Source of the DNA: an uncultured Pelagibacteraceae bacterium
GTDB taxonomy: Bacteria; Pseudomonadota; Alphaproteobacteria; Pelagibacterales; Pelagibacteraceae
Reading direction: 5' to 3'
Length of the DNA stretch: 64,000 nucleotides
Assembly (NCBI GenBank): GCA_902578315.1
Contig: CACHCL010000006.1
Span: 1 to 64,000, forward strand
Every line of letters begins with the position of its first letter. The stretch's first letter is position 1. The notes below the pieces were generated by a model. That model did not search any database. It was given only the letters and a program-made list of their open reading frames with translations, and was not told where the DNA came from. A program made the translations under genes and the position numbers. Of this stretch, positions 11,816 to 14,206 are shown piece by piece.

Positions 11816-12890
11816 TTAAAATTTTTCTCATTTTTTTTATTAATGCAATATTCTCTGATGTTGTTCCAATAGTTACACGTAAAGAATTTTTAATTCCATA
11901 AACGTCCATTTTACGAACCAGTATTCCAGATTTTGCAAGTAATCTAAAAACTTTAGCAGAGTTTATTTTCACTTTATCAAATTTTAATAATAAAAAATTA
12001 GTAAAACTTTTATTTGTTTCGATTCTCATTTTTTTAAACTCAGAAAACATTTTTTTACTCCATTTATTTACGTGGTTAATTTCTTTATTAAGCCATGAAT
12101 TATCCCTTACTGCAGCAGAAGCTGCAAATAGAGCTGGTCTACTTACATTAAAAGGTGGCTTAACCTTATTTAATGCAGAAATAATTTCTTTTGACCCATA
12201 TCCCCAGCCAACTCTAAGTCCTGCTAAACCATATATTTTTGAAAAGGTTCTAGTCATAACCACATTTCTAAAGTTTGTGAAAGTTTTTAAACCAGACAAA
12301 TAATCTTTTCGTTTTACGTACTCAAAGTAAGCGTCATCTACTACTAATAGAATATTGCTTCTCAATTTTTTTCTTAAATAGAGCAACTCTTTTTTTGAAA
12401 TATATGTTCCAGTCGGATTATTAGGGTTAGCTAGAAAAACTATTTTAGTTCTTCTTGTAACTTTTTTTAGTATATCTTTTACTGAAGCAGTAAAATTATC
12501 TTCCTTTGAGTAAATAACCTTTGCTCCATTCATCCTGCTATAAATTCTGTAAATAATAAAACTAAACTTAGGAACTATAACTTCGTCTCCTTTTTTTAAA
12601 AACGATTTACATATTAGTTCAAATATTTGATCAGAGCCTGATCCTAAGATTATTCTTTTTTTATCAATCTTAAATTTATTAGCTAAAGTATTTCTTAAAA
12701 AAGTTCCATCGGAGTCAGGATATCTTGAAAAGTTTTTTGAAACTTCTAAGTATTGTTTTCTCGCTCTAGGACTAGGGCCAAGAGCAGACTCATTGGCTGA
12801 TAATTTAATCTTTGCTAATTTACTTTTAAATAAGCTCATTCCAGCTACATATTTCTCTGCAACAATGTTATTTGGTTTCGGAAATCTCAT
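11805..12890 (-). CDS. hisC: Histidinol-phosphate / aromatic aminotransferase
   Basis: PLP class I/II aminotransferase of 361 residues. The PLP-binding lysine sits in TRTFSKIYGLAGLRVGW, NPNNPTGTY marks the cofactor/substrate region, and the conserved C-terminal Arg is in SLRVTIGT. It belongs to histidine synthesis and probably also to tyrosine/phenylalanine synthesis, given the overlapping tyrC. It is divergent from the SAM-II/metX unit; a TTGTCA on the minus strand overlaps the metX -35 box, but no convincing -10 was found. Confidence 0.92.
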   Translation of the reverse strand: MRFPKPNNIVAEKYVAGMSLFKSKLAKIKLSANESALGPSPRARKQYLEVSKNFSRYPDSDGTFLRNTLANKFKIDKKRIILGSGSDQIFELICKSFLKKGDEVIVPKFSFIIYRIYSRMNGAKVIYSKEDNFTASVKDILKKVTRRTKIVFLANPNNPTGTYISKKELLYLRKKLRSNILLVVDDAYFEYVKRKDYLSGLKTFTNFRNVVMTRTFSKIYGLAGLRVGWGYGSKEIISALNKVKPPFNVSRPALFAASAAVRDNSWLNKEINHVNKWSKKMFSEFKKMRIETNKSFTNFLLLKFDKVKINSAKVFRLLAKSGILVRKMDVYGIKNSLRVTIGTTSENIALIKKMRKILNVR

Positions 12891-12950
12891 TTTATTAATG
12901 TAATATCTAAATTGTTTAAGTTTTTCTATAGCTCTTTATCGTATATAAAA

Positions 12951-12979
12951 TTGACAAGTTTATGATGATTTAGTAAACA
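12951..12979 (+). promoter_or_regulatory. Sigma70-type promoter of the SAM-II/metX transcript
   Basis: TTGACA at 12951-12956 is a perfect -35 box; a 17-base spacer leads to TAAACA at 12974-12979. Initiation would fall near 12985-12987, exactly at the first stem of the SAM-II aptamer (CTCGCGCT), so the transcript would begin with the riboswitch. Confidence 0.75.
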
Positions 12980-12982
12980 TTA

Positions 12983-13036
12983 CTCGCGCTGATTTAACCA
13001 TATTGCAAGCGCATAATAAATGTAGCTAAAAAGGGG
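12983..13036 (+). promoter_or_regulatory. SAM-II riboswitch aptamer
   Basis: Senses S-adenosylmethionine and lowers expression of methionine-synthesis genes. The sequence follows the SAM-II consensus I recall from marine metX leaders, with core words CGCGCTGATTTAACC, ATTGCAAGCGC, ATAAATGTAGC and TAAAAAGGGG. Stem P1 pairs GCGCT (12986-12990) with AGCGC (13008-13012). The 3' segment AGCTAAAAAGGGG supplies the pseudoknot and SAM contacts in the known fold. An intrinsic terminator follows three bases later, and metX starts at 13067, so regulation is probably by attenuation. Confidence 0.95.
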
Positions 13037-13038
13037 AT

Positions 13039-13064
13039 GCCCAGTTTAGCTGGGCTTTTTTTTT
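13039..13064 (+). terminator. Intrinsic terminator in the metX leader (riboswitch expression platform)
   Basis: Stem GCCCAG (13039-13044) pairs with CTGGGC (13050-13055) around loop TTTAG, followed by nine T (13056-13064). The loop and 3' arm (TTTAGCT, 13045-13051) are also complementary to AGCTAAA at 13024-13030 in the aptamer, so terminator and antiterminator exclude each other. Confidence 0.93.
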
Positions 13065-13066
13065 GG

Positions 13067-14206
13067 ATGAATATAAAACTGGATAATATTAAGAAATTAG
13101 ACGTTACTAAACCGCTTAAACTAGACTGCGGAAAAACTATTAAAGATTTTCCTCTCGCTTATGAGACCTATGGAAAATTAAATGCTAATAAAGATAACGC
13201 GATACTTGTATTTCATGCGTTAACAGGAGATCAGTTCGTGACTGGAACTAATCCTATAACTAATAAAGAGGGTTGGTGGGTTACTGCAGTAGGTCCTGGT
13301 AAAGCAATAGATACAAATAAATATTTTGTTATTTGTGCAAATGTGATTGGAGGATGTATGGGTTCATTAGGTCCTAAAGATATTAATCCAGTGACACAAA
13401 AACCTTACGGATTGGATTTTCCAGTTATAACAATAAAAGATATGGTTAAAGCTCAGGAGTCTTTACTTGAACATCTAGGAATTAAAAAACTTTTATGTGC
13501 GACTGGGGGTTCAATGGGTGGAATGCAACTTTTACAATTTTGTGCAACATTTCCGGATAAAGCTTTTTCAGCGGTGCCAATAGCCTGTAGCTCGAGCCAT
13601 AGCGCTCAAAATATTGCTCTTAATGAATTAGCTCGTCAAGCAATTATGGCAGATCCTGTATGGGATAATGGAAAATATGTTTTGAAAAATGTTCAACCAA
13701 AAAATGGCTTAGCAGTTGCAAGAATGGTTGGACATATAAGTTATTTATCTGAAAAAGGTATGCAAGAAAAATTTGGTAGAAAATTACAAGAGAAGGCAGA
13801 TTATGAATTTAGTTTTAATGCTGACTTCCAGGTTGAAAGTTATTTAAGACATCAAGGCTATGCATTCGTTGAAAGATTTGATGCTAATTCAGTACTATAT
13901 ATAACAAGAGCAATGGATTATTTTGATCTTTCAAAACAATTTAAAGGAGGTTTGGTAGAAGCATTTAAAAATCAAAAAACAAAATTCCTAATCATTTCAT
14001 TTTCCTCTGATTGGCTTTACACAACAAAAGATAACAAAGATATTGTAATAGCATTAAATGCGTCGGGTGCAGATGTCTCTTACTCTGAGATAATTACAGA
14101 CAAAGGACATGACTCTTTTTTACTTGATGAGCCTGAATTTTTAAAAACACTCAAAGGTTTTATAGACTCTATGTATGAAAAATTTAAAAATGAAAAAAGA
14201 ATTTAA
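13067..14206 (+). CDS. metX: Homoserine O-acetyltransferase (or succinyltransferase)
   Basis: Acylates homoserine, the committed step of methionine synthesis. Starting at ATG 13067 the protein has 379 residues with an alpha/beta-hydrolase fold: the nucleophile S149 lies in ATGGSMGGMQ, the acid in FSSDWLYTT and the His in DKGHDSFLLD. An in-frame ATG at 13037 would start inside the riboswitch terminator hairpin and translate it; I reject it. The chosen ATG lies two bases after the U run with no Shine-Dalgarno in between. metW overlaps the 3' end. Whether acetyl- or succinyl-CoA is used cannot be read directly. Confidence 0.94.
   Translation: MNIKLDNIKKLDVTKPLKLDCGKTIKDFPLAYETYGKLNANKDNAILVFHALTGDQFVTGTNPITNKEGWWVTAVGPGKAIDTNKYFVICANVIGGCMGSLGPKDINPVTQKPYGLDFPVITIKDMVKAQESLLEHLGIKKLLCATGGSMGGMQLLQFCATFPDKAFSAVPIACSSSHSAQNIALNELARQAIMADPVWDNGKYVLKNVQPKNGLAVARMVGHISYLSEKGMQEKFGRKLQEKADYEFSFNADFQVESYLRHQGYAFVERFDANSVLYITRAMDYFDLSKQFKGGLVEAFKNQKTKFLIISFSSDWLYTTKDNKDIVIALNASGADVSYSEIITDKGHDSFLLDEPEFLKTLKGFIDSMYEKFKNEKRI

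Follow-up and report, generated by a model that had tools for sequence, protein, structure and literature searches.

A SAM-II aptamer strand complementary to a downstream terminator loop before metX in SAR11 bacteria points to a transcriptional attenuator built from the ligand site

The leader of metX in an uncultured member of the Pelagibacteraceae carries a SAM-II aptamer followed closely by an intrinsic terminator, and the aptamer strand that contacts SAM is complementary to the loop and the beginning of the 3' arm of that terminator. We consider it likely that this arrangement is a transcriptional OFF switch on metX and metW. What can be read directly here is the sequences, their conservation and the competition between the two folds; from these we infer that this copy binds SAM, that termination depends on SAM, and how far an effect on translation is added to it. 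The platform is real and conserved in five genera; it is probably a transcriptional one, with the ligand-contacting strand serving as the antiterminator. With moderate confidence we further propose that in the Pelagibacterales the competing strand has moved from the variable P2a to the ligand-contacting P2b, where the terminator loop reads it, that an RNA used as the textbook case of a complete translational riboswitch is, in its natural leader, a transcriptional (or dual) attenuator, and that this pairing also accounts for the missing response of SAM-II to SAM in the HTCC1062 bhmT tandem once the linker is present.

The window, by which we mean the whole stretch of 64,000 nucleotides that was analysed, comes from a SAR11 assembly of 957,569 bases. 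The parts mapped in it are as follows.

12951-12956 and 12971-12975, plus strand: promoter-like TTGACA and TAGTA, spacing 14 nt, directly 5' of P1
12984-13036, plus strand: SAM-II (SAM_alpha, RF00521) aptamer, from the RF00521 match and 49/52 identity to the reference RNA
12986-12990 and 13008-13012, plus strand: P1, part of the aptamer
within 12998-13006 (5' strand) and 13025-13035 (3' strand), plus strand: P2, its register taken from published structures
13024-13030, plus strand: AGCUAAA, the SAM-contacting 3' strand of P2b and also the putative antiterminator strand, from sequence and from pairs counted in 77 leaders
13033-13036, plus strand: GGGG tract, from sequence
13033-13042, plus strand: inner antiterminator helix, GGG 13033-13035 with CCC 13040-13042 around GAUG, from sequence and folding
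13037-13039, plus strand: AUG1, in the metX frame and 5' of the terminator, from in-frame ATG counts in 77 leaders
13039-13064, plus strand: intrinsic terminator GCCCAG-UUUAG-CUGGGC then U9, from the terminator scan, relatives and folding
13039-13044 and 13050-13055, plus strand: terminator stem GCCCAG and CTGGGC, with T9 at 13056-13064, from sequence
13045-13051, plus strand: UUUAGCU, terminator loop and start of the 3' arm, antisense to 13024-13030, from sequence and relatives
13067-14206, plus strand: metX (homoserine O-acyltransferase), starting at AUG2, the ATG at 13067, from NF001209
14175-14783, plus strand: metW, overlapping metX, from TIGR02081 (metW, 234.3 bits)

The metX product matches the MetX equivalog model NF001209 with 509.8 bits against a cut-off of 331, and metX and metW presumably share one transcript. 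The 5' neighbour of the leader, hisC, is divergently oriented, so the hairpin can act on the metX leader only, and its reading as the end of a 5' gene was discarded. A terminator scan of 12500-13500 returned one site, the metX-leader hairpin, where shuffled sequences gave a mean of 0.5. The end of the U tract lies 2 nt, and the hairpin 11 nt, from the metX start. AUG1 at 13037 was tried as the metX start and rejected, being missing in 57 of 77 leaders, and is probably not the start codon. By eye, relatives from several genera show the TTGACA and TAGTA pair at the same place 5' of their aptamers; it is absent from the output of a sigma-70 scan. Elsewhere in the window, on the minus strand, 53564-53616 matches the ffh sRNA motif (RF01793) with 42.4 bits, above the cut-off of that model, and 1636-1719 is a tRNA (RF00005, 54.3 bits) with a long variable arm whose anticodon is by eye probably CAA, hence tRNA-Leu.

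The preliminary description placed SAM-II before metX, and this identification stands. SAM_alpha (RF00521) tops the Rfam matches in a search of 301 bases, with 26.2 bits and E = 4e-4, short of the 36 bits that curation sets for that family. An exact natural copy of the wild-type 52-mer (L046, in G094:C3) scores 34.1 bits, also below 36, and none of the 147 genomes of the SAR11 family reaches the cut-off, one of them holding that exact copy; the threshold is therefore not decisive for membership, and annotation at 36 bits would miss the SAM-II leaders of the family. Compared with the published wild-type SAM-II RNA, as given in PMC8494917, the window aptamer is identical at 49 of 52 nt and differs at positions 17, 30 and 32 only. 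Both the P1 hairpin and P2, an H-type pseudoknot, are present together with the conserved elements GAUUU, UUGC and GCUAAA, and the aptamer precedes methionine genes, metX and then metW. The three differing positions presumably make no contact with SAM; the SAM-binding core has the sequence of the reference RNA, and the window copy is expected to bind SAM. SAM-V (RF01826) gave no match among the eight listed for 12900-13200 at E up to 5, and was rejected as an identity in place of SAM-II.

The complementarity between AGCTAAA (13024-13030) and TTTAGCT (13045-13051), which had been pointed out from the letters, checks in sequence and coordinates, as do the overlap of TTTAGCT with the loop and 3' arm of the terminator GCCCAG/CTGGGC plus T9, all strings of which are in place, and the positions of GGG (13033-13035) and CCC (13040-13042) around GATG, which appear as the inner helix in folding. 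When the stem is held fixed and the 5-nt loop is random, the probability of an unbroken run of seven Watson-Crick pairs with AGCTAAAAAGGG is P = 0.0023; for a random 17-mer of SAR11 composition it is P = 0.0087. For the single sequence alone the match is above chance and suggestive, and the relatives strengthen it greatly. Unrelated terminators from the window and from L169-L233 were dropped as controls, since only two distinct hairpins passed the search, and random loops, random sequence and other Alphaproteobacteria were used in their place.

A structural reading follows from this complementarity. Without SAM, AGCUAAA-AGGG of the aptamer would pair with CCC-AG-UUUAGCU, and the antiterminator so formed would occupy the 5' arm and loop of the terminator and allow RNA polymerase to read through. 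SAM-II is described as closing P2 over SAM, the GCUAAA 3' strand and the following Gs included (PMC6061858, PMC10907184). Once SAM is bound, the AGCUAAA strand would be locked into the pseudoknot and triplex of P2, leaving the terminator to form and to halt transcription within U9. Because one strand belongs to both the aptamer and the antiterminator, SAM binding should remove the antiterminator and let the terminator form, the OFF logic that one expects for metX, and because the antiterminator is complete 4 nt ahead of the terminator it should have a head start. Two features expected of a transcriptional OFF riboswitch were found: an intrinsic terminator lies between the aptamer and metX, and an antiterminator sharing bases with aptamer and terminator is kept in relatives.

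The family provides a broad view of this conservation. MetX was detected in 127 of the 147 genomes, at 128 places that yielded 126 leaders once the partial genes in G067 and G146 were left out, and 117 of the 126 leaders carry a SAM-II aptamer, the nine without it all belonging to genus g5. The 77 leaders that we call type A, defined by genus (g1, g2, g3, g6 and g8), have the aptamer and then a terminator close to the start codon in 76 cases by a mechanical search. A 12-nt terminator-side strand, CCC[AG]G-NNUAGCU or a one-base variant of it, is found in 77/77; the pattern demands N-N-U-[AG]-GCU in the loop, and none of the 77 fails it. GCUAAA is invariant throughout. Counted pair by pair, the A-U pair 5' of GCUAAA is present in 76 leaders, G-C in 77, C-G in 77 and U-A in 76 plus one U-G, and the three A of GCUAAA are paired with U in 77, 50 and 67 leaders respectively, with mismatches at the middle A in 27 and at the last A in 10. 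The C after GCUAAA faces G and prolongs the helix in 25 of the 27 leaders with a middle-A mismatch, which may reflect lineage and not compensation; over all metX leaders of this type, C or U stands opposite G after GCUAAA in 33 of 77. Near-identical leaders in 65 named loci (Pelagibacteraceae, Pelagibacterales and Candidatus Pelagibacter), which are close relatives and not independent, have the terminator with the TTTAGCT loop in 65/65.

Conservation of the alternative pairings in related leaders had been named in advance as a check on the switch, and the pairing is kept in 77/77 metX leaders of five genera (27 of them with the mismatch at the middle A) and recurs in two more leader sets with different stems. 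For the covariation proposed between 13024-13030 and 13045-13051, what is seen is a conserved loop and changes at flanking pairs; classical covariation is nearly absent, GCUAAA being invariant. True covariation is not to be expected here, since the need to bind SAM keeps the aptamer strand from varying.

The same loop logic appears on unrelated stems. In bhmT-type SAM-II leaders, of which many are by eye SAM-II/SAM-V tandems, the terminator stem is ACCAC[CT]...[AG]GTGGT; 37 distinct ones were picked by GCTAA[AG]GC and this stem, not by the loop. Their loop is GCUUUAGC or close to it and is complementary to GCUAAAGC, whose eight positions are each paired in 35 to 37 of the 37 leaders when G-U is allowed, with G-C and C-G following the GCUAAA pairs; one leader, L239, has five contiguous pairs only. 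In the sister family of the order, where 30 loci represent eight distinct platforms, the stem is [AG]CC[AG]CC...GG[CT]GGT with exchange of G-C and A-U, and CAGCUAA has its partner in the loop UUAGUUG. In one leader UAGCUG puts a G-C pair in place of G-U, and one has a mismatch. Loop complementarity is thus present in three leader sets with the stems GCCC[AG]G, ACCAC[CT] and [AG]CC[AG]CC. The window's own genome holds a second SAM-II aptamer (L002, G000:C1:152066-152140), by eye a SAM-II/SAM-V tandem; a short ORF and, by eye, a metY-like gene lie 3' of it, and its terminator loop GCTTTAGC is antisense to GCTAAAGC.

Runs of at least six pairs, G-U included, were counted on each side of P2. On the GCUAAA side they occur in 33/35 scored bhmT-type leaders, in 18/18 distinct leaders of the sister family and in 4/50 leaders of other Alphaproteobacteria among the matches listed. 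On the P2a side (AGGUCGG) the last group has such a run in 39/50 leaders, again among the matches listed, and a run of six is found there in 2/72 metX leaders, 5/35 of the bhmT type and 9/18 of the sister family, which may use both sides. The other Alphaproteobacteria are represented by 70 loci among the matches listed, mostly the best scoring, and three of these (L275, L291 and L344) have no aptamer by pattern. Leaders without a hairpin stand outside the denominators: 2/74 distinct metX, 2/37 bhmT-type and 19/69 other leaders. The transcriptional SAM-II leaders of other Alphaproteobacteria are thus like the present one in aptamer class, terminator and OFF logic, and unlike it in the competing strand, which is mostly P2a (39/50) and seldom GCUAAA (4/50) among the matches listed.

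These comparisons bear on whether the complementarity means anything at all. The hairpin might be a constitutive attenuator or processing hairpin that sets a fixed level, with an incidental match to the aptamer. TAGCTA is self-complementary and so favours accidental matches, and for the terminator of S. meliloti metA no SAM-II-driven antiterminator could be predicted (PMC9373788), so that terminators unlinked to the preceding SAM-II may exist. Recurrence of the loop complementarity in three leader sets with differing stems, and the rarity of seven pairs when the loop on this stem is randomized, tell against an accident, and we find a constitutive hairpin distinctly improbable.

Folding calculations support a SAM-responsive terminator as the preferred reading. 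Vienna folding cannot model the P2 pseudoknot, and the SAM-bound state was represented by a proxy in which the P2 bases are blocked. For the window RNA at 37 C the antiterminator hairpin is predicted at -12.0 kcal/mol against -10.8 for the terminator hairpin. When growing transcripts are folded at 37 C, those ending at 13049 to 13062 have the antiterminator as their minimum-energy form, and those reaching 13063 or beyond an extended terminator; with the P2 strands blocked, the terminator begins at 13052 and is complete at 13055. In the window's own full transcript, exposure of 8 U at 37 C is enough to make the terminator the preferred fold; at 20 C five exposed U tip the balance, so that the outcome depends on timing. 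With seven U at 37 C and nothing blocked, the antiterminator is predicted in 49/77 metX and 20/37 bhmT-type leaders and the terminator in 28/77 and 17/37; blocking P2 gives the terminator in 76/77 and 37/37. At 20 C, unblocked, the split between antiterminator and terminator is 43 to 34 of 77 metX leaders and 21 to 16 of 37 bhmT-type leaders. An antiterminator is predicted in 27 of 42 distinct natural platforms versus 80 of 1680 random-loop folds. In these models, then, folding reproduces the switch, although the near balance of the two folds counts against it. With the pairing kept in 77/77 metX leaders, the antiterminator/terminator reading made earlier from the window alone is supported.

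The exclusive structures obtained in folding also argue against a kissing interaction, in which the terminator loop would pair with AGCUAAA while its stem stays intact, competing with SAM and causing no antitermination. The loop UUUAG is indeed complementary to CUAAA, but 75/77 leaders retain two or more G facing the CCC of the terminator 5' arm, and a fully paired loop of 5 nt seems sterically doubtful; we regard such kissing as very improbable.

A translational switch, in which SAM hides the GGG tract as a Shine-Dalgarno-like sequence and the hairpin is secondary, is the published model for the metX SAM-II RNA (PMC6061858, PMC10907184). Across the 76 leaders measured (L146 was left out; it was counted as lacking AUG1, in agreement with inspection by eye), 30-47 nt separate the G tract from the start of metX, a distance outside Shine-Dalgarno spacing. 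The tract is also not kept, with AAATG and AAAGC in 2/4 leaders of g6 and AAAGG in 13/18 of g3. Control at a distance, as a variant of this reading, would find a parallel in S. meliloti metA, which shares the order Shine-Dalgarno sequence, AUG1, terminator and AUG2, and where the Shine-Dalgarno sequence is reported to matter for initiation 74 nt downstream (PMC9373788); an in-frame AUG1 is present in 20/77 leaders, the window's genus accounting for 18, but is missing in the other 57. Hiding of the G tract moreover leaves the loop complementarity without explanation, and we judge it unlikely as the main mode of control.

Dual control, with SAM terminating transcription and also blocking initiation on read-through RNA, is possible, and we entertain it tentatively. 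With the U tract 2 nt from AUG2, the hairpin may also impede initiation on read-through RNA; the tract ends 2 nt 5' of the ATG in 45/77 leaders, and such platforms were described by Barrick and Breaker 2007. The same authors' criterion puts hairpin and start at most 10 nt apart, however, and the window has 11 nt. In g6 and g8 a gap of 13 to 14 nt follows the U tract before the start codon is reached, and no clear Shine-Dalgarno sequence lies within the hairpin.

The terminator has a direct bearing on the reference RNA of the class, since the same RNA occurs in nature with this platform. The 52-mer, which we take to be the RNA of PDB entry 2QWY, is found exactly in two SAR11 genomes (L017, L046 and L212, taken as one, and L225), and in both it is followed by GAUG, the present terminator with its antisense loop, U9 and the metX start. 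This reference RNA, alike to the window aptamer at 49/52 nt, is unlike it in being described as acting by translational occlusion of the Shine-Dalgarno sequence (PMC6061858 and PMC10907184); because the exact 52-mer is followed by a terminator in both genomes, the translational label of the metX RNA looks incomplete. The last base of the crystal construct may differ from the 52-mer, as PMC5352136 names A52.

For the class as a whole, the premise in the preliminary description that accounts of SAM-II usually have it act on translation is wrong: Barrick and Breaker 2007 and Huang and Lilley 2018 (PMC6061858) tie SAM-II mostly to transcription, and the latter treats the metX RNA as a rare translational SAM-II, which a 2024 review gives as its example of direct occlusion (PMC10907184). 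Putative terminators after many SAM-II RNAs were noted by Corbino 2005 (PMC1273637), SAM-II before bhmT and metX of HTCC1062 is reported to affect transcription (Smith 2016, PMC5069961), a review of tandems has their SAM-II always preceding a terminator (PMC9481103), and Meyer 2009 (PMC2704228) lists SAM-II before HTCC1062 metX. Transcriptional SAM-II is thus already proposed in print (Barrick and Breaker 2007, PMC1273637, PMC5069961), and the unexpected point is the terminator on this metX RNA, not transcriptional SAM-II as such. The passages on the metX RNA consulted in PMC6061858, PMC10907184, PMC9373788 and PMC5352136 do not mention a metX-leader terminator, and those consulted in PMC13273304, PMC12452182, PMC4239095 and PMC3723493 hold nothing on this platform. 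An antiterminator built from the ligand site is apparently new: among the papers listed for the subject, no title or abstract opening describes it, although an earlier drawing is possible. One related system is S. meliloti metA (Scheuer 2022, PMC9373788), which is alike in its order of aptamer, Shine-Dalgarno-like tract, AUG1, terminator and in-frame AUG2, the last being the start used there, and unlike in that its authors could predict no antiterminator and no SAM effect on the terminator is predicted.

These considerations matter for how the RNA is studied. The metX RNA has been the focus of structural and dynamic studies of SAM-II (PMC6061858), which leave out its downstream sequence and read it as directly occluding a ribosome-binding site (PMC10907184, PMC9373788 and PMC5352136). 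If this RNA is in nature switched through a terminator, the bases just 3' of the aptamer are important: a competitor for the freed strand lies about 15 nt further on, and the speed of folding relative to transcription sets the outcome. The antiterminator reading also offers a testable answer to a puzzle raised in 2024 about the SAM-II half of the bhmT tandem (PMC11508383), where the authors found that the linker makes this half unresponsive in the full tandem, for a cause that they did not understand.

The HTCC1062 tandem resembles the metX leader in having SAM-II, then a terminator with U9 (U82-U90), and an aptamer strand predicted to pair with the terminator loop; it differs in its stem, ACCACC, in a loop pairing shifted 3' to GCUAAAGC, and in the SAM-V aptamer that follows. 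We took the stretch in G026 at the coordinates published for the bhmT leader (PMC2704228), and it fits the numbering of PMC11508383, with U46 as the U of GCUAAA and agreement at residues 10, 11, 20-22, 47, 49 and U82-U90. At 20, 30 and 37 C it folds best into the antiterminator, in which CCUGCUAAAGCG and CGCUUUAG-A-CAGG form a helix of 12 pairs. C68, where the strongest SAM response of the linker begins according to PMC11508383, lies within the terminator loop that takes part in this pairing. Pairing of aptamer and loop may thus explain the lost SAM-II binding; restoring oligos 2 and 3 of that study (PMC11508383) bind 3' of the loop and must therefore act indirectly, which counts against this account.

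The metX platform described here is a feature of only part of the family, as the other 40 aptamer-bearing metX leaders (25 of g4, 8 of g9, 6 of g12 and 1 of g7) are without this terminator. In the HTCC1062-like genus g4, which includes G026, the aptamer is present and the terminator absent in 25/25 leaders, and the metX leaders of the HTCC1062 genus were accordingly rejected as support for the terminator and stand as a counter-example. In g7, g9 and g12 it is missing in 15/15. Three platform types on one aptamer before metX in one family make a compact natural series on platform change with the aptamer held constant.

The g4 metX leaders (L112, L125, L127, L130-L132, L137, L138, L140, L145, L149-L155 and L157-L164) have no GC hairpin; the aptamer runs directly into 6-9 T and then CTC[A/T]CAATTC, which can pair with GAATTGCGAG of the aptamer at 9/10 positions, the mismatch at a constant place, in 25/25. 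This looks like a different platform. The leaders of g7, g9 and g12 (L096, L098, L099, L103, L104, L106, L109-L111, L113, L114, L122, L123, L144 and L147) have AGG or GAGG 3' of GCUAAA and, by eye, a short hairpin and then the ATG; the g12 hairpin, also by eye, has a changed sequence and a retained stem. The arrangement points to a translational platform whose spacer is looped out. In g5, metX is without SAM-II in 9/9 leaders, and the aptamer stands by eye before a metW-like gene (L062, L168, L241, L248, L257 and L269-L271), followed by an A-tract/U-tract hairpin.
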